A stretch of DNA of 25,462 bases, taken from a virus. Shown one piece after another: positions 2,452 through 24,698 of this stretch. How positions within the stretch are numbered: position 1 is the stretch's first letter; each line of letters begins with the position of its first letter. The stretch spans positions 1 through 25,462 of the IMG/VR virus record IMGVR_UViG_3300003690_000207; one strand, written 5' to 3'. The notes below the pieces were generated by a model, which had not been told where the DNA came from, did not search any database, and saw only the letters and a list, made by a program, of their open reading frames with translations. The translations under genes and the position numbers were made by a program.

Positions 2452-3788
2452 CGCTTATCAAACGGGGTCTCGATGCACTGCTCAAGCAAAATGTGCAACG
2501 TCCACCGATGGCACTGGCATCGGGGCTGAACCTGTCGGGGATTGGCGGGGGAGGTGGTGTGCCGAACCAACTCTCCCAGATGCAAGCCATGTCCCAGACC
2601 TCTTGGCTGTTTGCCGTGGTGGACAGGATAGCGGCATCAACCGCTGCCGTGTCGTGGAGCCTCTATAGAAGGATGCCGAATGACGAACAACAGGAAGTCT
2701 TGCGGCACCCGCTTATAGATTTGTGGGCCTCGGTCAACCCGTTCTACACACGGCACGAATTCATAGAGACGAGCGTCCAGCACTTTGAGTTGACGGGGGA
2801 AATCTGGTGGTTGATAGTCCGCAACGCTGGGGGAAGGCCCGTGGAACTGTGGCCCATACGCCCAGACAGGATTCGCCCGGTACCGCACATCTCGGAGTTC
2901 GTCGCAGGATACATCTACACCATAGGGTCGATGCAGATACCGCTCCAGAAGAACGATGTGATATTCATCCGAAGGCCCAGCCCACTCGACCCCTATCGTG
3001 GCATCGGCACGGTTCAATCCTTGCTCATGGACTTGGGTGCAGAGCAAGCCGCTGCCCAATGGACACGGAACTTCTTCTCCAACGGGGCCATGCCAGGGGG
3101 CATCCTACAGTTCGACGAGGGTCTGAGTGATGCGGACTTTGAGAGACTCGTCACCAGATGGGGTGAGCAGCACCAGGGAGTCGCCAATGCTCACAGGGTA
3201 GCAGTCTTGGAACGGGGCAAGTGGGTGGACAGGAAGTTCAGCCAACGGGATATGCAGATGGAGCAGCTACGCAAATTGAACAGGGACATCATCCTTGGGG
3301 CGTTTGGCATCCCTGCCTCTGTTATGGGTGTCACTGAATCAGTGAACAGGGCCAACGCCGAGGCGGGGGATGTGATGTTCGGGCGGTGGATATTGAAGCC
3401 CCTGCTGGAGCGCATCAAACAGGCGGTGAATGAACGCCTGGTACACGCTATCGACAGAACCCTAACACTGGACTATGCCGACCCCAGACCTGAGAACAGG
3501 GAGTTGCATCTCAACATCGCAGAGCGTGGATTCAAGGGGGGCTTCTTGACCCGTAATGAGAGCCGTGCCTTGCTGGGTTACGGGGAAGCCACCGACGGGG
3601 GCGACGAGTTCGCTGCCCCTGCCGCATCGCCAATGGGGTTCGCCCTGGAGGAAATGGTGCAGAAGGCGGCAAGTGATGTGCATCCCGATGAGGTCAATGA
3701 GGAGGAGGATTCCATGGAGGGTCGCTGGGCCAGGAGGTTCCGTAAAGAACGGAATGAGTTAATCACCTACTTAGAGGGGATAGGCTAA
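2448..3788 (+). CDS. Portal protein, HK97 family
   Basis: This is the dodecameric ring at the capsid vertex through which DNA enters and leaves. At 446 residues it has the usual length. Recognisable features are the N-terminal SWLFAVVDRIAASTAAV segment, the stretch following WWLIVRNAGGRPVELWPIRP, and the GIPASVMGVTESVNRANAEA region followed by a helical segment (FGRWILKPLLERIKQAVNER), all typical of HK97-type portals. The C-terminus is acidic (VNEEEDSMEGRW). GGAGG lies about 7 nt before the ATG. It is coupled by ATGA to the gene before and by TAATG to the gene after. Confidence 0.96.
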   Translation: MTLIKRGLDALLKQNVQRPPMALASGLNLSGIGGGGGVPNQLSQMQAMSQTSWLFAVVDRIAASTAAVSWSLYRRMPNDEQQEVLRHPLIDLWASVNPFYTRHEFIETSVQHFELTGEIWWLIVRNAGGRPVELWPIRPDRIRPVPHISEFVAGYIYTIGSMQIPLQKNDVIFIRRPSPLDPYRGIGTVQSLLMDLGAEQAAAQWTRNFFSNGAMPGGILQFDEGLSDADFERLVTRWGEQHQGVANAHRVAVLERGKWVDRKFSQRDMQMEQLRKLNRDIILGAFGIPASVMGVTESVNRANAEAGDVMFGRWILKPLLERIKQAVNERLVHAIDRTLTLDYADPRPENRELHLNIAERGFKGGFLTRNESRALLGYGEATDGGDEFAAPAASPMGFALEEMVQKAASDVHPDEVNEEEDSMEGRWARRFRKERNELITYLEGIG

Positions 3789-4318
3789 TGGTAGCAACAG
3801 CAGATGAGCAAGTGGCAGAGATGATTCGCAAGAAGGGGTGGAAGGTATTGACCAAGGGGTGGCCCGATATCTTGGCATATAAACCCATAGACCATAACGG
3901 ATATGGCACTGCGATACGAGGTGGACAGGTTATGGCTATTGAACTCAAGAGAGGGAATGACAAACTAAGGGCAGACCAAGAAGAGATGAAAAATGTTTTC
4001 ACATATAACCTTGACGTGCCATTTTATGTAGCAAGAGATGAAGACATCGTGGCGTTGACTCGCAAAAGGGGACGAATCGTCGTGCCGTGGGAATCATTGC
4101 CATCGTTACAATCATCAACTGAGAAGCTATCTCGGCAAGCTATGGAGCTAACCAGGGAGTTAGCAAGGTTGCAAAGTGAGATTGATACGCTGACACATAC
4201 CTTTGAGGAAATACCCCGACCTGAAAATCAAGCGAAGGTTATAAGAACGTCGATTGCAATGAACCCAATGTATCGGCAGCTGGGGGCGATAGAAAGTCTC
4301 TCAAGGGGAACAGGCTAA
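3788..4318 (+). CDS. VRR-NUC-like PD-(D/E)XK nuclease with C-terminal coiled coil
   Basis: The first 90 residues look like a VRR-NUC/Holliday-junction-resolvase-like fold: GWPDILAYK supplies P26-D27, VMAIELKRG supplies E52 and K54, and Q64 follows in LRADQEEMKNVF. This spacing (D, then ExK, then Q) is the catalytic pattern of the PD-(D/E)XK superfamily. Residues about 105-140 (TEKLSRQAMELTRELARLQS and onward) form a probable coiled coil, which may mediate oligomerisation or docking. It starts on TAATG from the portal stop and ends on TAATG into the MuF gene, so it is co-translated with head genes. A role in trimming branched DNA before or during packaging is an inference. Confidence 0.8.
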   Translation: MVATADEQVAEMIRKKGWKVLTKGWPDILAYKPIDHNGYGTAIRGGQVMAIELKRGNDKLRADQEEMKNVFTYNLDVPFYVARDEDIVALTRKRGRIVVPWESLPSLQSSTEKLSRQAMELTRELARLQSEIDTLTHTFEEIPRPENQAKVIRTSIAMNPMYRQLGAIESLSRGTG

Positions 4319-5055
4319 TGGAAGTCGCAGACATTGATGGGTATGACTGGAACTGGTCTGCCAAGTATCTGGACGAGTTTGTTGAGGAATTAACCAACGC
4401 CTATGCAGCCTCGTTTGTCGCCGAGTTCCCTGCTGGGCCGATTGGTATAGTGCAGCGAGAAGCTGCGGAGTATGCCAGGACAAGGGGAGCGATTGAGATT
4501 GTAAACATCACTGCTACGACCAGGGAGAGGATTAGGGAAATAGTCGGACAGGCTCTTACGGATGGAGAGCGCATGGCAGTTATCTCCGAAAAGATAAATA
4601 GTGATCATATTTTTTCCGAGGGTAGAGCCATGCGGATTGCCCGTACCGAAACGGCAACAGCCTTGGGACAGGGGACGAAGGGAGCAGCAAAAGCACAGGG
4701 CAGGGACGAGAAGCGATGGGTCACACAGGGGGATGGGGACGTTTCTGATGACTGCTTGCTCAATGAGGGGGAAGGGTGGATTCCGATAGGTGACAACTTC
4801 CCCAGCGGTATTGAGACTATACCCCAGCACCAGAACTGTCGGTGCAATGTGCGGTATAGGACGAGCGCACTGGGTGCCGATGTGGAGATACCATTTGCGG
4901 GCACCCGTCCAGAAGATAGGACATACACCCCGACTATCCTGCGGGACTTCCGTTGCTCTGGATGCAACAGGCTCCTGGGTAGGGATGTACACCCAGGAAC
5001 CCGTATACACTGTCGGCATTGTAAGGAGGAAAGGGTGGCAACAGGAGGTGCCTAG
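4318..5055 (+). CDS. MuF-type minor head protein with C-terminal Com-like zinc ribbon
   Basis: Residues about 95-185 match the phage Mu gpF / SPP1 gp7 head-morphogenesis domain: IARTETATALGQGTKGA, then KRWVTQGDGDVSDDCLLNEG, then the hallmark HQNCRCNVRY. Such proteins sit at or near the portal and help DNA delivery. The last 35 residues hold a separate C4 zinc ribbon with two CxxC pairs (CSGCNRLLG and CRHCKEER). The spacing and the CNRLL element recall Mu Com, a small zinc-finger translational activator of the mom modification gene. The fusion is unusual. The start overlaps the upstream stop as TAATG. Confidence 0.9.
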   Translation: MEVADIDGYDWNWSAKYLDEFVEELTNAYAASFVAEFPAGPIGIVQREAAEYARTRGAIEIVNITATTRERIREIVGQALTDGERMAVISEKINSDHIFSEGRAMRIARTETATALGQGTKGAAKAQGRDEKRWVTQGDGDVSDDCLLNEGEGWIPIGDNFPSGIETIPQHQNCRCNVRYRTSALGADVEIPFAGTRPEDRTYTPTILRDFRCSGCNRLLGRDVHPGTRIHCRHCKEERVATGGA

Positions 5056-5445
5056 ATGGTTGATATAAGGGCATGGGTAGCCAAGCCCAAAGGTAAGATT
5101 AGGGTATACGATGGCGACACGTTTTACTCCGATACGCTTGATGTGGGTTGGGGTGCTAGTCTAAACAAACCCAAGTTTCGCATCATGGGAATAGACACCC
5201 CAGAAAAGGGCTGGAGGGCTAAGACGGACAGAGAACGTGAATTATCATTGCAGGCTAAGAAGTTTCTTGAGCATCTTATCTTCAGTGCGGTAGAAGTGTT
5301 GGTATATAGCAATGATGGTCGGGGTAAATACGGTAGGTGGCTTGTGAACGTAGTATGTGATGGCGTGGATGTAGGCACAGCCTTAATGGAGGCAGGGTTG
5401 GCTCGGCCTTATGACGGCGGTACTAAAGACATAACGCCGTGGTAG
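5056..5445 (+). CDS. Staphylococcal nuclease (SNase)-like nuclease
   Basis: This is a 129-residue protein with SNase hallmarks in order: KIRVYDGDTFYSD (residues about 15-27, metal ligands in DGDT), RIMGIDTPEKGW (catalytic region), YSNDGRGKYGRWLVNV (catalytic Arg region) and ALMEAGLARPYDGG. It probably hydrolyses DNA or RNA with a Ca2+-type mechanism. No signal peptide is evident, so it should act in the cytoplasm or in the particle. GGAGG lies 7 nt before the ATG, and the ATG abuts the upstream TAG. Its place among head genes is unusual. The next 127 bases are non-coding, so it ends the first operon block. Confidence 0.9.
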   Translation: MVDIRAWVAKPKGKIRVYDGDTFYSDTLDVGWGASLNKPKFRIMGIDTPEKGWRAKTDRERELSLQAKKFLEHLIFSAVEVLVYSNDGRGKYGRWLVNVVCDGVDVGTALMEAGLARPYDGGTKDITPW

Positions 5446-5572: not shown

Positions 5573-5770
5573 ATGCCATACCCGACAGAACATAGTTGCC
5601 GACTGGAGTCGCCCGAAGGGTATGACAGGATGCGCCGCCAGAATAACTGGCGGGAGCATGAAGGAAAAAGAATAGATGCCATCTGGGGAATCAAGGATGA
5701 CAAGGCAGAACTCCAGGCCATGCGCTACCCGAAAGACCAGTGGCAGACATCTGATGCGAGACGGCATTGA
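5573..5770 (+). CDS. Small conserved head-module domain preceding the prohead protease, ends at TGA
   Basis: This is a 65-residue protein containing YPTEHSCRLESPEGY, then GKRIDAIWG, then QAMRYPKDQW. From memory this is a small conserved domain found either alone or at the N-terminus of phage prohead proteases. The family normally continues past the point where this one stops with a segment like H-C-x-D-H-x-G-x-x-F-E-P-A. Here TGA replaces the Cys codon, and the same frame then reads TDHAGRQFEPASAPEIRSR straight into the protease ATG at 5828. So this is either a truncated stand-alone protein or the first part of a recoded 348-residue fusion. The ATG at 5573 has no clear Shine-Dalgarno; an ATG at 5549 lies inside the hairpin. 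Confidence 0.7.
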   Translation: MPYPTEHSCRLESPEGYDRMRRQNNWREHEGKRIDAIWGIKDDKAELQAMRYPKDQWQTSDARRH

Positions 5771-5804
5771 ACAGACCATGCAGGGCGGCAGTTCGAGCCA
5801 GCCT
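5768..5804 (+). other. In-frame TGA followed by a short hairpin, between the small domain and the protease
   Basis: TGA at 5768-5770 is the only stop between the frame opened at 5573 and the protease ATG at 5828. Twelve nucleotides after it begins a hairpin: GGGCGGC (5783-5789), loop AGTTCGA, then GCC-A-GCCT (5797-5804) with one bulged A and a terminal G-U pair. The arrangement resembles a readthrough or bacterial SECIS-type geometry but could equally be chance around a nonsense mutation. TGA is used as an ordinary stop elsewhere (for example 2267-2269). Confidence 0.35.
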
Positions 5805-5827
5805 CAGCCCCAGAGATAAGGAGCAGG

Positions 5828-6619
5828 ATGACCCATATCACCAAATTCGTGCGTCCCACCGCACTCAGATTGCTGGATGAGGAAGCGGGAATTATCAGTG
5901 CTGTTGTATCCACTGAGGATGTAGATAGGGACGGGGACATTATAAGACAAGATGGTTGGAACCTCGCTCACTTCTCCGCTCATCCGATTCTGTTAAGCAG
6001 CCACAACTACCGTGGACTCACCAACCAGATTGGGGAGTGGACACGGATGACGGTAGAGGATAACCAGCTGGTCGGTCACGCTAAATACTACATCGGAGAG
6101 GGCAACGAGGAGGCCGATTGGGGATTTAAACTCGCCACGAAGGGCCGAGCAGCATTTAGCGTAGGGTTCGTTCCCGATATGGCGCAGGCCAAACAAATCG
6201 AAGCCAATGGCAGTCTGTCCTATGAGTACCAGGGGCAGGAGCTATTGGAGGTGTCCCAGGTCACAGTCCCCAGCAACCCCCAGGCACTCCAGGCGATGAA
6301 GGGGATGACCCTCCATCCCGATGTGGAGATGCTTGTTGAGGAGATGTTGGGAGACATGGCGGTAGAGTATAAGACGCCGCCAGTACGGGAATATACAGCA
6401 TCCCCCAGGCAAGCACCTGTTGATACAGATGCTCTTGCCGTGAAGATTGTTGACCTGATGAGGGAAGATTTGAAGAAGCTAGTTCCTAGTCGAAGGCAAG
6501 AGCAAGAGACAAAGAGGATAGCTGACCAGTATGCCAGAACAGTTTTGCTACCTGACGCTGCAAGCATTGTCAGGGACGCTATCAGACAGGTGATGCCACA
6601 TTACAGGGAGGAAAGATAG
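5828..6619 (+). CDS. Prohead protease, HK97 family (peptidase S78-like)
   Basis: This protease is packed inside the procapsid and cleaves the scaffold part of the capsid protein. The catalytic His is probably H59 in ILLSSHNYRG, and the catalytic Ser S111 in RAAFSVGFVP. The conserved ELLEVSQVTVPSNPQA follows. The N-terminal STEDVDRDGDIIRQDGW is typical of the family. Residues from about 165 on are charged and helical, likely a packing or scaffold-contact tail. AAGGAG ends 4 nt before the ATG, so it can be translated by itself, although the frame is open upstream to the TGA at 5768. The capsid gene follows after 2 nt. Confidence 0.95.
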   Translation: MTHITKFVRPTALRLLDEEAGIISAVVSTEDVDRDGDIIRQDGWNLAHFSAHPILLSSHNYRGLTNQIGEWTRMTVEDNQLVGHAKYYIGEGNEEADWGFKLATKGRAAFSVGFVPDMAQAKQIEANGSLSYEYQGQELLEVSQVTVPSNPQALQAMKGMTLHPDVEMLVEEMLGDMAVEYKTPPVREYTASPRQAPVDTDALAVKIVDLMREDLKKLVPSRRQEQETKRIADQYARTVLLPDAASIVRDAIRQVMPHYREER

Positions 6620-22941: not shown

Positions 22942-22950
22942 ACTTATCAT

Positions 22951-22979
22951 GCCCCAGGTCATCCCCTGCGGCCTGTGGC
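22951..22979. repeat. Imperfect inverted repeat, 7 of 8 pairs
   Basis: GCCCCAGG (22951-22958) pairs with CCTGTGGC (22972-22979) with one C-T mismatch, around a 13-nt loop. It lies 9 nt after the 10-bp repeat. Confidence 0.5.
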
Positions 22980-22990
22980 ATTGTTATGCT

Positions 22991-23009
22991 AGTCTAGCCA
23001 TGCTAGACT
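22991..23009. repeat. Perfect 8-bp inverted repeat with CAT centre
   Basis: AGTCTAGC (22991-22998) and GCTAGACT (23002-23009) are separated by only CAT. G-U and G-C pairs could lengthen it to about 11 bp in RNA (22988-23012). The tight dyad resembles a dimeric repressor or recombinase site as much as an RNA hairpin. Confidence 0.6.
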
Positions 23010-23036
23010 GGTCATAGCGCATATAGGTGGCCTCCT

Positions 23037-23050
23037 AGTATGCGCATACT
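23037..23050. repeat. Perfect 14-bp palindrome
   Basis: AGTATGCGCATACT reads the same on both strands with no central spacer, 4 nt before the late terminator stem. A spacerless palindrome of this length is a likely protein-binding site (operator or recombinase). Confidence 0.6.
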
Positions 23051-23054
23051 TGGG

Positions 23055-23096
23055 ATAGGGAGTCTGATTTGAGAGAGTCAGGCTCCCTATTTTTTT
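23055..23096 (+). terminator. Strong rho-independent terminator of the late operon
   Basis: ATAGGGAGTCTGA (23055-23067) pairs with TCAGGCTCCCTAT (23078-23090), 13 pairs including one G-U, around a 10-nt loop. Seven T follow (23090-23096). It closes the rightward structural gene block and insulates it from the promoter at 23217. Confidence 0.93.
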
Positions 23097-23216
23097 GTCC
23101 ATTTTCACCCCTGTTCCCAGGCCACCCATAGTAAGAGATAGGGCATAGACCCATGGGAGACATTTGTACAATTGGGAGCAGTTTCTAAAATCAAACAAAA
23201 TAGCCCACATAAACCC

Positions 23217-23245
23217 TTGACAAGTGTTGACCACTACTATATACT
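23217..23245 (+). promoter_or_regulatory. Strong sigma70-type promoter for the right-hand small-gene block
   Basis: TTGACA (23217-23222), a 17-bp spacer and TATACT (23240-23245) match the bacterial consensus at 11 of 12 positions. Transcription should start near 23252. TTGTACAA (23164-23171) upstream and TTGTACA (23250-23256) at the start site flank it and may be operator half-sites; TTGAC is also repeated within the spacer. Confidence 0.82.
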
Positions 23246-23251
23246 CCTATT

Positions 23252-23447
23252 GTACAGAGTAACAGGAGGCAAACAAACAACGACAAACCAAACAAACATA
23301 GAAGAACAGACGAGGGAAGTGGTTCCACCCTCAACAAAGACCCCGAGGCTGATAAACACAGCCGCCACAAAGCGGCAGCCGAGGCCAAGCGGAGAGCCTG
23401 ATTCCCAGCGCAAGCGACATCAGGAAACAGCGAGGAGAGAAGGGGTT
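23252..23447 (+). other. ATG-free structured leader of the small-gene transcript
   Basis: About 195 nt downstream of the promoter hold no ATG on the + strand. AGGAGG appears at 23264-23269 in the same style as the later modules, but no start codon follows; the next sequence is A/C-rich. Small hairpins are present, for example GCCGC (23361-23365) with GCGGC (23372-23376). In one frame the stretch from 23270 reads like a basic peptide ending at a TGA, with no start codon. It is read here as an untranslated leader or a gene that lost its start. Confidence 0.5.
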
Positions 23448-23530
23448 GGTGAGGACAGGGAACCAGCAATTCCCTGTAAGCCCCGAGGCTGGTTCCAAGG
23501 CCAGTCAAACCAACAGGGCTGGAGGCCACG
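23448..23530 (+). promoter_or_regulatory. Repeated structured 5' module, copy 1
   Basis: GGTGAG is followed by stem P1 ACAGGGAA/TTCCCTGT (23455-23462, 23470-23477). Then TAA leads into P2 AGCCC/GGGCT (23479-23483, 23516-23520), which encloses P3 GGCTGG/CCAGTC (23487-23492, 23501-23506) with loop TTCCAAGG. GGAGGCC ends 3 nt before the ATG at 23531. It shares order, loop and ribosome site with the three other copies. Confidence 0.75.
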
Positions 23531-23743
23531 ATGAGAACAATAAGAAAGATGCCCAACGGGAGACTGAGTCTTGCAGAGTGCAGGTTCCTGTACCAAATGA
23601 CATTCAATGAGGAACTGCCAGACAATATCACATTCATCGAAGCAGCCGAGGCTGCCTTTGAATTCTCAGGGGAGAAGGGATTCTACAAACTTCTCAAGAA
23701 CATCAGGGACAACAAGATAGTGGAACAATGGGTCAAGGGATAA
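23531..23743 (+). CDS. Small hypothetical protein (70 aa), first gene of the right block
   Basis: It begins MRTIRKMPNGRLSLAECRFL, then YQMTFNEELPDNITFIEAAE, and ends KNIRDNKIVEQWVKG. It is soluble, probably helical, and not recognised. Translation should start from GGAGGCC in module copy 1, 5 nt upstream of the ATG. It is the first clear ORF after the promoter at 23217, so it is probably an early or regulatory gene. The next module begins at its stop. Confidence 0.72.
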   Translation: MRTIRKMPNGRLSLAECRFLYQMTFNEELPDNITFIEAAEAAFEFSGEKGFYKLLKNIRDNKIVEQWVKG

Positions 23744-23827
23744 GGTGAGCCACCGACCCTACGGGGTCGGCGTAACCCCCAGGGCTGGTGGCAAGGCCAG
23801 CCCAAATAACAGGGGTAGGAGGCCAAA
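23744..23827 (+). promoter_or_regulatory. Repeated structured 5' module, copy 2
   Basis: GGTGAG follows the stop codon. P1 is CCGACCC/GGGTCGG (23753-23759, 23764-23770) with a cUACGg tetraloop. TAA is followed by P2 ACCCC/GGGGT (23775-23779, 23812-23816), which encloses P3 GGGCTGG/CCAGCCC (23782-23788, 23797-23803) with loop TGGCAAGG. AGGAGGCC ends 3 nt before the ATG at 23828. Confidence 0.8.
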
Positions 23828-24010
23828 ATGAACATGAGAACCCCAGTCAACACAGGGACACTAAAATCAGCACTGACAAAGATAATCTATAAACTCAAAG
23901 AGGAGTTGCGAGAGGAGAAGGCTGAGGTTGAGCGGTTGAAGGCGGAGGTTGCAATCCTTCATCAGTATGTAGCGACATCAGAGCGACTGCGCAGGTCGCT
24001 GAGGTCATAA
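23828..24010 (+). CDS. Small coiled-coil protein (60 aa)
   Basis: Residues about 14-50 (KSALTKIIYKLKEELREEKA and VERLKAEVAILHQY) form a clear charged heptad coiled coil, and the end is basic (RLRRSLRS). It probably oligomerises or binds a partner; no family is recognised. It starts 5 nt after AGGAGG of module copy 2 and is followed at once by module copy 3. Confidence 0.75.
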   Translation: MNMRTPVNTGTLKSALTKIIYKLKEELREEKAEVERLKAEVAILHQYVATSERLRRSLRS

Positions 24011-24098
24011 AGGTGAGGAGCAGGGGCTACGGCCCCTGTTAAACCCCTGCACTGGTTCCAAGGCCAGAGCAAAACTTTCAAGGGGTTAGGAGGCCAGA
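24011..24098 (+). promoter_or_regulatory. Repeated structured 5' module, copy 3
   Basis: AGGTGAG (24011-24017) is followed by P1 CAGGGGC/GCCCCTG (24021-24027, 24032-24038) with a cUACGg tetraloop. Then TAA leads to P2 AACCCCT/AGGGGTT (24042-24048, 24081-24087), which encloses P3 CTGG/CCAG (24052-24055, 24064-24067) with loop TTCCAAGG, extended by GC/GC past an A-A mismatch. AGGAGGCC ends 3 nt before the ATG at 24099. Confidence 0.82.
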
Positions 24099-24329
24099 AT
24101 GAACCAGAACAGCAGCGGAGAAAAGGTATACAGAGTCAGCCTCACGGACGAGCAACTGAACTGGATCGGGTCGGCACTGAGGAGCCAAGCGAAGGCGGGA
24201 GGCACTCGCAAGACCAAGACCGCAGCCAAGCTCTCCAAACTGGCAGCGAGGCTGATGGAGCGACACGCTGGGAACCCTAACCTGATGCTGAATGGACAAA
24301 TCACCGCAACGCTAGAGGAGGCCAACTAA
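24099..24329 (+). CDS. Small basic helical protein (76 aa)
   Basis: It starts MNQNSSGEKVYRVSLTDEQL, continues NWIGSALRSQAKAGGTRKTK and then TAAKLSKLAARLMERHAG. A short strand followed by helices rich in Lys and Arg gives it a net basic middle, compatible with nucleic-acid binding, but no known motif is present. It starts 5 nt after AGGAGG of module copy 3. Confidence 0.72.
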   Translation: MNQNSSGEKVYRVSLTDEQLNWIGSALRSQAKAGGTRKTKTAAKLSKLAARLMERHAGNPNLMLNGQITATLEEAN

Positions 24330-24428
24330 AGACGCAGGAGGGGCCAGGGGGTTCTGCCCCCTGGTGTAACTGCCCAGGCCAGAAGTCCCAAGGACTGGTC
24401 AAACTCAGGAGCAGATTAAGGAGGCCAC
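24330..24428 (+). promoter_or_regulatory. Repeated structured 5' module, copy 4 (divergent)
   Basis: P1 is CCAGGGGG/CCCCCTGG (24344-24351, 24357-24364), loop TTCTG. TAA is followed by P2 CTGCCC/GG-A-GCAG (24070-type pairing at 24370-24375 with 24408-24414, one bulged A), which encloses P3 GGCCAG/CTGGTC (24377-24382, 24395-24400) with CCAAGG in its loop. AGGAGGCC ends 2 nt before the ATG at 24429. GGTGAG is not conserved here. P3 has the two strands swapped in sequence compared with the other copies, yet still pairs. Confidence 0.7.
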
Positions 24429-24698
24429 ATGGCAGAGATAACGGATAAAGAGGAGGGCATGGTGGGACGACGACACGATTGGTGGATGGCACGGATAGGC
24501 AAGACCATGACGACGTATAGGGGGCATCTGATAGTCCGCTGTAACTGGGCGGGGGGACAGCATGGAGGCGAGTGGTACGTCCAGACTCGCCACAGCCCCA
24601 CAGGGATGGCGTGGTCGGATGAGGAGTGTCCGCATTTCGATTCCATAGCTGGGGCCAAGGATTATATCAAGGAAGGGGTTAGAGATAAATGGCAATAA
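24429..24698 (+). CDS. Small hypothetical protein (89 aa)
   Basis: It begins MAEITDKEEGMVGRRHDWWM, then TMTTYRGHLIVRCNWAGGQH, then GGEWYVQTRHSPTGMAW, and ends YIKEGVRDKWQ. It is rich in Trp, His and Gly, with two Cys, and probably forms a small alpha/beta fold. I do not recognise it. Its ATG lies 4 nt after AGGAGG of module copy 4, and its stop overlaps the next ATG by 10 nt, so the two are coupled. Confidence 0.7.
   Translation: MAEITDKEEGMVGRRHDWWMARIGKTMTTYRGHLIVRCNWAGGQHGGEWYVQTRHSPTGMAWSDEECPHFDSIAGAKDYIKEGVRDKWQ

Follow-up and report, generated by a model that had tools for sequence, protein, structure and literature searches.

Predicted type-P5 twister ribozymes in series before the small genes of a phage operon, with a covarying strand that may capture the cut end

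Introduction

Clustered hammerhead ribozymes of prophages flank single genes or short gene blocks, as set out in the part of Perreault et al. (2011; PMC3088659) drawn on here. The same part reports cleavage of an Agrobacterium hammerhead array in vitro and in E. coli and proposes that such arrays turn long phage transcripts into single-gene mRNAs, so the idea of ribozyme punctuation is not new. Theta ribozymes, which are HDV-like, process phage tRNA transcripts in gut phages (PMC10879173). The 5'-OH product of the glmS ribozyme is degraded by RNase J1 (PMC11780869). Cluster K mycobacteriophages carry SAS/ESAS, repeats that precede the starts of non-structural genes and about half of which include inverted repeats (PMC3203893).

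Here we analyse a stretch of 25,462 nucleotides (the window), nearly the whole of a 26,193-base uncultivated virus record (IMG/VR IMGVR_UViG_3300003690_000207). Four small genes of this virus are each preceded by a structured module that is recognisable as a twister ribozyme of type P5, and similar arrays recur in other viruses.

Results

The terminase, portal and other phage genes lie on the left side of the window. A sigma-70-like promoter (Table 1) presumably serves the small-gene operon, in which a leader of about 200 bases is followed by the four small genes, a phrog_1933 gene and a DUF932 gene. The leader (23246-23447) contains an AGGAGG at ~23264 with no start codon nearby. A search with small gene 3 as query found no relatives. 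The four modules lie where an initial annotation had placed them, each directly before a small gene, and contain the elements it described: a P1 hairpin, TAA, a CAAGG loop, an A-rich strand and a Shine-Dalgarno sequence, with GGTGAG in copies 1-3 and GCAG-GAG in its place in copy 4. A reading of P1 as an attenuator or terminator was rejected, as no T-run follows it; a consensus terminator scan of 22950-23550, which takes in copy 1 only, found none on the plus strand.

Table 1 Features of the small-gene operon in the window. Ribozyme assignments and cuts are predicted.
Feature	Position	Strand	Details
Sigma-70-like promoter (putative)	23217..23245	+	TTGACA-17-TATACT; 11/12 consensus matches
Twister-P5 ribozyme, copy 1	23448..23504	+	Rfam RF02684 35.4 bits, E 1.8e-5; cut 23477 U/23478 A
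X, copy 1	23516..23520	+	GGGCU; pairs +2 to +6 after the cut (AGCCC); directly before GGAGG
Small gene 1	23531..23743	+	70 aa; no family match
Twister-P5 ribozyme, copy 2	23744..23800	+	Rfam 22.7 bits, below cut-off; cut 23773/23774
X, copy 2	23812..23816	+	GGGGU; pairs ACCCC after the cut
Small gene 2	23828..24010	+	60 aa; no family match
Twister-P5 ribozyme, copy 3	24012..24067	+	Rfam 47.5 bits, above cut-off; cut 24040/24041
X, copy 3	24081..24087	+	AGGGGUU; pairs AACCCCU after the cut
Small gene 3	24099..24329	+	76 aa; no family match
Twister-P5-like ribozyme, copy 4	24334..24400	+	Descriptor P1=10, P2=4, P4=6; cut 24367/24368
X, copy 4	24411..24414	+	GCAG; pairs CUGC after the cut
Small gene 4	24429..24698	+	89 aa; no family match; homologue in L122

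By the covariance-model criterion for twister-P5 (RF02684, curated cut-off 37.6 bits), copy 3 passes, copy 1 falls just under and copy 2 well under; copy 4 is absent from the Rfam matches of the window. When the module is mapped onto the twister fold, GGU becomes the 5' strand of P2, and the conserved GAG faces the cleavage site. GAG, the UAA of the cleavage site and the CAAG of the P4 loop are present in all four copies, as are P1 (a closed hairpin), P2 and P4 in type-P5 order. The P2 pairings are GGU/ACC, GGU/GCC and GCAG/CUGC; in copy 2, whose first base lies directly 3' of the upstream stop codon, GGU stands opposite CCC with an innermost U-C unless the strands slip by one. We take the cut to fall between U and A of UAA, a position assigned from knowledge of the family.

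Two tertiary pairings absent from Rfam's secondary-structure model add to this assignment. In T1 the dinucleotide that follows GAG pairs with the one that precedes CAAG; T2 links two bases 3' of P2 to the GG after CAA. T1 covaries between copies, with three types (GA/UC in copies 1 and 3, CC/GG in copy 2, GG/CC in copy 4), and T2 is CC/GG in all four. Copy 4, with a core of GCAG-GAG, UAA-CUGC (a 4-bp P2) and CAAG, has the core nucleotides, the stems and the two pseudoknots expected of a twister, and has a close relative in locus L134. The window module is thus recognisable, from its sequence, as a type-P5 twister with predicted self-cleavage; the Rfam match and the pseudoknot rule exclude a new RNA class. 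Processing was among the two functions, translation or processing control, that the initial annotation had offered, although the twister-P5 identity escaped it. Folded as single sequences, the regions 3' of the cut have ordinary energies (z -1.1 to +0.2), and stability alone was rejected as evidence, being not significant for the product RNAs. The support therefore comes from covariation and relatives.

A search pattern that leaves T1 free collected 61 stretches from IMG/VR. T1 is complementary in 64/69 matches to this pattern, with nine pair types, where chance would give 1 in 16; T2 is complementary in 67/69, where chance given the pattern is about half. A descriptor combining the stems with both pseudoknots finds all four window copies and gives 152 matches in 2.06 Mb of collected loci, against 2 in shuffled sequence, and Rfam Twister-P5 returns 49 above-threshold matches in 14 related loci. 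The descriptor counts and the Rfam matches of copies 1-3 place the modules above chance. The initial annotation was right to see an RNA structure that is repeated, under selection and at work on single genes, and the arrangement recurs in the 61 pattern loci. Tandem arrays hold seven units in L167 and eight in L170, L177, L197 and L214, the largest comprising eight or more twisters. Applied to 84,980 genomes of bacteria and archaea, a closely similar, tighter pattern matches 3 loci; it matches 46 of the collected viral loci, so the arrangement is mainly viral.

Other searches were less productive. A loose first IMG/VR pattern gave mostly chance hits among the matches listed, and yielded the locus L028. 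Nucleotide searches of a phage collection with window positions 1-25000 and with L197 and L199 found no match, and the matches of L214 there fall within coding sequence. The descriptor found no twister in the stretches of phages TrvxScott and Daredevil to which it was applied. One contig binned as Candidatus Poribacteria (L222) carries four tandem twisters at 2055-2978 and may represent a prophage or a virus binned in error.

Removal of near-duplicates from the descriptor matches leaves 98 modules. A Shine-Dalgarno sequence and an ORF follow on the same strand in 94/98, against 6/98 on the opposite strand, and in 87/98 an ORF ends shortly before the module, in many cases running into its first bases. 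The stop codon ends on the first G of GGUGAG in 19 cases and is the UGA inside GGUGAG in 13. From this clustering of stop codons we infer that a terminating ribosome should cover part of the ribozyme. The downstream genes are small (median 99 aa) and mutually unrelated; the few recognisable ones include ATPases, amidoligases, a methyltransferase, a helicase and an HNH nuclease. The module is tied to a position and not to a gene family.

Just 5' of the Shine-Dalgarno sequence in each window copy lies a strand, here called X, whose complement stands at or next to the start of the downstream product (Table 1). The pairing of copy 4 has a counterpart in L134 (AACUGC/GCAGUU). Because X, P2 and T2 use the same nucleotides, X excludes the latter two. 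The stems of the initial annotation can be sorted accordingly: its 'P1' is the twister P1, its 'TAA' the cleavage site and its 'P3' the P4 with the CAAG loop, but its 'P2' lies outside the ribozyme fold. That stem is X, which competes with the twister P2, so the single fold drawn there merged two mutually exclusive pairings. Among the 24 ways of assigning the X strands of the four window copies to one another's modules, the true one shares first place.

Across relatives, X was assessed by comparing each module's own strand with strands swapped among modules (2000 swaps), because MAFFT does not keep the X region in register when aligning it. In the X-lineage loci (43 modules) the mean is 5.44 pairs against 4.44 +/- 0.12 after swapping (maximum 4.84 in 2000), and 25/43 modules have six or more pairs against 8.1 (maximum 17 in 2000); these loci were chosen partly for a visible X, which raises the absolute values and, somewhat, the contrast between own and swapped strands. 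The other 55 modules give no X signal (2.56 pairs, 2.59 swapped). With all 98 taken unselected, 32 have six or more pairs against 9.9 swapped (maximum 19 in 300). Pair types vary at +3 (A-U, C-G, G-U, G-C) and at +5 and +6 (C-G, G-C). X reaches nucleotide +1 in 22/35 cases and abuts the Shine-Dalgarno sequence in 18/35; in the folded cut product, nucleotides +1 to +3 have a mean unpaired probability of 0.46 when X is present and 0.91 when it is not. Gene sharing places the window together with most X loci in one loose phage lineage (L194, for example, has 29 ORF matches to the window). The X copies are not fully independent, because X is mostly confined to this loosely connected lineage. Within it, X pairing is strongly supported by the comparison of sequences.

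The competition between X and P2 also admits an opposite order of events, in which X pairs first, taking up the As of the cleavage site and the nucleotides of P2 while the RNA is still uncut, and holds the ribozyme inactive until a 30S subunit at the adjacent Shine-Dalgarno sequence, a protein or ions remove it, giving cleavage regulated gene by gene. Such a switch would explain why X shares nucleotides with P2 and T2 and ends at the Shine-Dalgarno sequence, and ribosomes would influence folding because the ribozyme starts overlap stop codons. It is also consistent with the pairing energies, about -5.5 kcal/mol for X and -2.1 for P2, by which X outweighs P2 by ~3 kcal/mol, although this comparison leaves out T1, T2 and all tertiary contacts. 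However, the complete ribozyme core is transcribed before X and so has a head start, and arrays lacking X are common, which shows that arrays can exist without being regulated by it. We consider such a switch unlikely.

Two relatives carry altered modules. At ~5610-5760 of L122, before the homologue of window gene 4, UGAA replaces UAA and GAG is missing; P4 is kept through compensating changes, as is an X pairing of AACUGC/GCAGUU. This appears to be a catalytically damaged copy that retains its 5' hairpin. On the minus strand of L194, ~640-735, the core has GATG for GAG and CAAAG for CAAG, with P1, P4 and an X-like CCCC/GGGG pairing kept; the gene that follows has a homologue in L122 that is preceded by an intact twister. 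These damaged cores with P4 and X intact are what would be expected if modules no longer cleaved and served only as structured sites for translation control or protein binding. For the arrays as a whole this reading is very improbable: T1/T2 complementarity, GAG and CAAG are maintained in all four window copies, and a scan of cleavage-site triplets finds TAA by far the commonest (39, next 5), TAA not being required by the scan but favoured by its tie-break.

Other elements occupy comparable positions in further relatives. L126, a relative whose DUF932 gene shows 46% identity, matches the type-II hammerhead (Rfam 46.9 bits) at 3265-3332, in the equivalent gap before a small gene, and thus a predicted ribozyme of a different class in the slot of the twister. 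The same contig carries four copies of a double hairpin before small genes (3930-4016, 4606-4672, 5062-5133, 5918-5996), built from TGCC, a hairpin, GGCAG, a CAGnnn/nnnCTG hairpin, ACA and GGAGG. Four of its 12 predicted pairs are changed on both sides and it has no Rfam match; it is possibly a new RNA or ribozyme class in the twister slot. In L125, structured intergenic elements before small genes (~1375-1470, ~1750-1812) have GTTAGYG and CACTAAC around an inner hairpin. The close relatives L123 and L124 (70% in DUF932) lack both the small-gene cassette and ribozymes (~5680-6000), which suggests that the cassette is gained and lost as a whole. A distant DUF932 phage contig, L131, has a group I intron at 4235-4561 (Rfam 74.7 bits).

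Discussion

We propose, with a probability of about 0.68, that these transcripts cleave themselves co-transcriptionally and then exchange strands, yielding single-gene mRNAs with a hairpin at each end. Each twister would fold during transcription and cut at U/AA, and a single early transcript would thus be divided into mRNAs of one gene each. In the type-P5 arrangement, the whole of P1, a strong hairpin, would form the 3' end of the upstream piece, with a cyclic phosphate, and the whole P4 hairpin would go with the downstream piece. The cut would loosen the P2 of 3-4 bp, and in the window's lineage X, transcribed soon after the ribozyme and worth more pairing energy than P2 when tertiary contacts are left aside, could then capture the first 4-7 nucleotides after the cut, driving product release and blocking re-ligation. 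The new 5'-OH end would be left in a hairpin ending right before the Shine-Dalgarno sequence, which may protect against 5' decay and keep the ribosome site open. X might also inhibit the uncut ribozyme, being stable enough to do so. The 5' hairpin may in addition act apart from cleavage, because the damaged cores of L122 and L194 keep P4 and X-like pairing.

The fate of the 5'-OH piece bears on a further alternative. RNase J1 breaks down the 5'-OH product of glmS, so holding the new end in a duplex could plausibly be an advantage; the same degradation (PMC11780869) could also mean that cleavage lowers downstream expression and that the ribozymes tune the amounts of small proteins. This seems to us quite improbable, given that X pairs the new 5' end in the window's lineage, that nearly every small gene of some arrays is preceded by a module, and that a Shine-Dalgarno sequence and an ORF follow almost all modules. 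Returning to cleavage followed by strand exchange, a more far-reaching reading is what may be called cleave-then-cap operons, in which phages encode twisters in series, the P2 strand is handed after the cut to a co-evolved downstream strand, and each cistron of a transcript receives a protected 5' end and a ready ribosome site without a protein nuclease. We regard this reading as an even bet.

The arrays give a directly testable form to the question of what role most self-cleaving ribozymes of bacteria and phages play: the modules keep a constant place between a stop codon and a ribosome site, there is one for each small gene, and they come with a covarying strand that is meaningful only with reference to the cut end. 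If the proposal is true, it would amount to protein-free punctuation of polycistronic mRNA and offer a compact ribozyme-plus-hairpin part for synthetic operons.

Among known systems, the SAS/ESAS of cluster K phages, which the initial annotation had invoked as an analogy, resemble the modules as repeated elements before gene starts. Their own features are a 13-bp conserved sequence and GTTGAC-type inverted repeats; we looked for the 13-bp GGGATAGGAGCCC before starts, some instances of which have 17-bp inverted repeats. SAS-like 13-mers number 8 in the window against 11.6 expected, the best with 2 mismatches, and neither an Rfam ribozyme match at E<=1 nor a match to the twister descriptor turns up in the SAS/ESAS-bearing non-structural half of phage TM4. 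The analogy fails and identity with SAS/ESAS is rejected, as the window is at chance level and TM4 has no twister core. The glmS ribozyme shares self-cleavage in a 5' UTR to give a 5'-OH mRNA, here predicted, but is ligand-dependent and leads to decay. Theta ribozymes are likewise phage-encoded self-cleaving RNAs for RNA processing, but have the HDV fold.

The closest likeness in fold is the type-P5 twister itself (RF02684), which the modules match in core nucleotides, P1/P2/P4, T1 and T2 and element order, copy 3 above threshold. They differ in standing in series before every small gene of a phage operon, in the added X strand that competes with P2, and in the enlarged P4 end of copy 4, which the Rfam model misses. 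In the open literature, with the subscription twister papers (Roth 2014, Weinberg 2015) outside its scope, we found no serial type-P5 twisters before each small gene, no overlap of twisters with stop codons and no X strand. Compared with the prophage hammerheads, the ribozyme class is different and the arrays reach eight or more units, and strand exchange into a 5' hairpin is not among the features described in the part of that report drawn on here (PMC3088659). Twister arrays with X thus appear to be a new variant of ribozyme punctuation.
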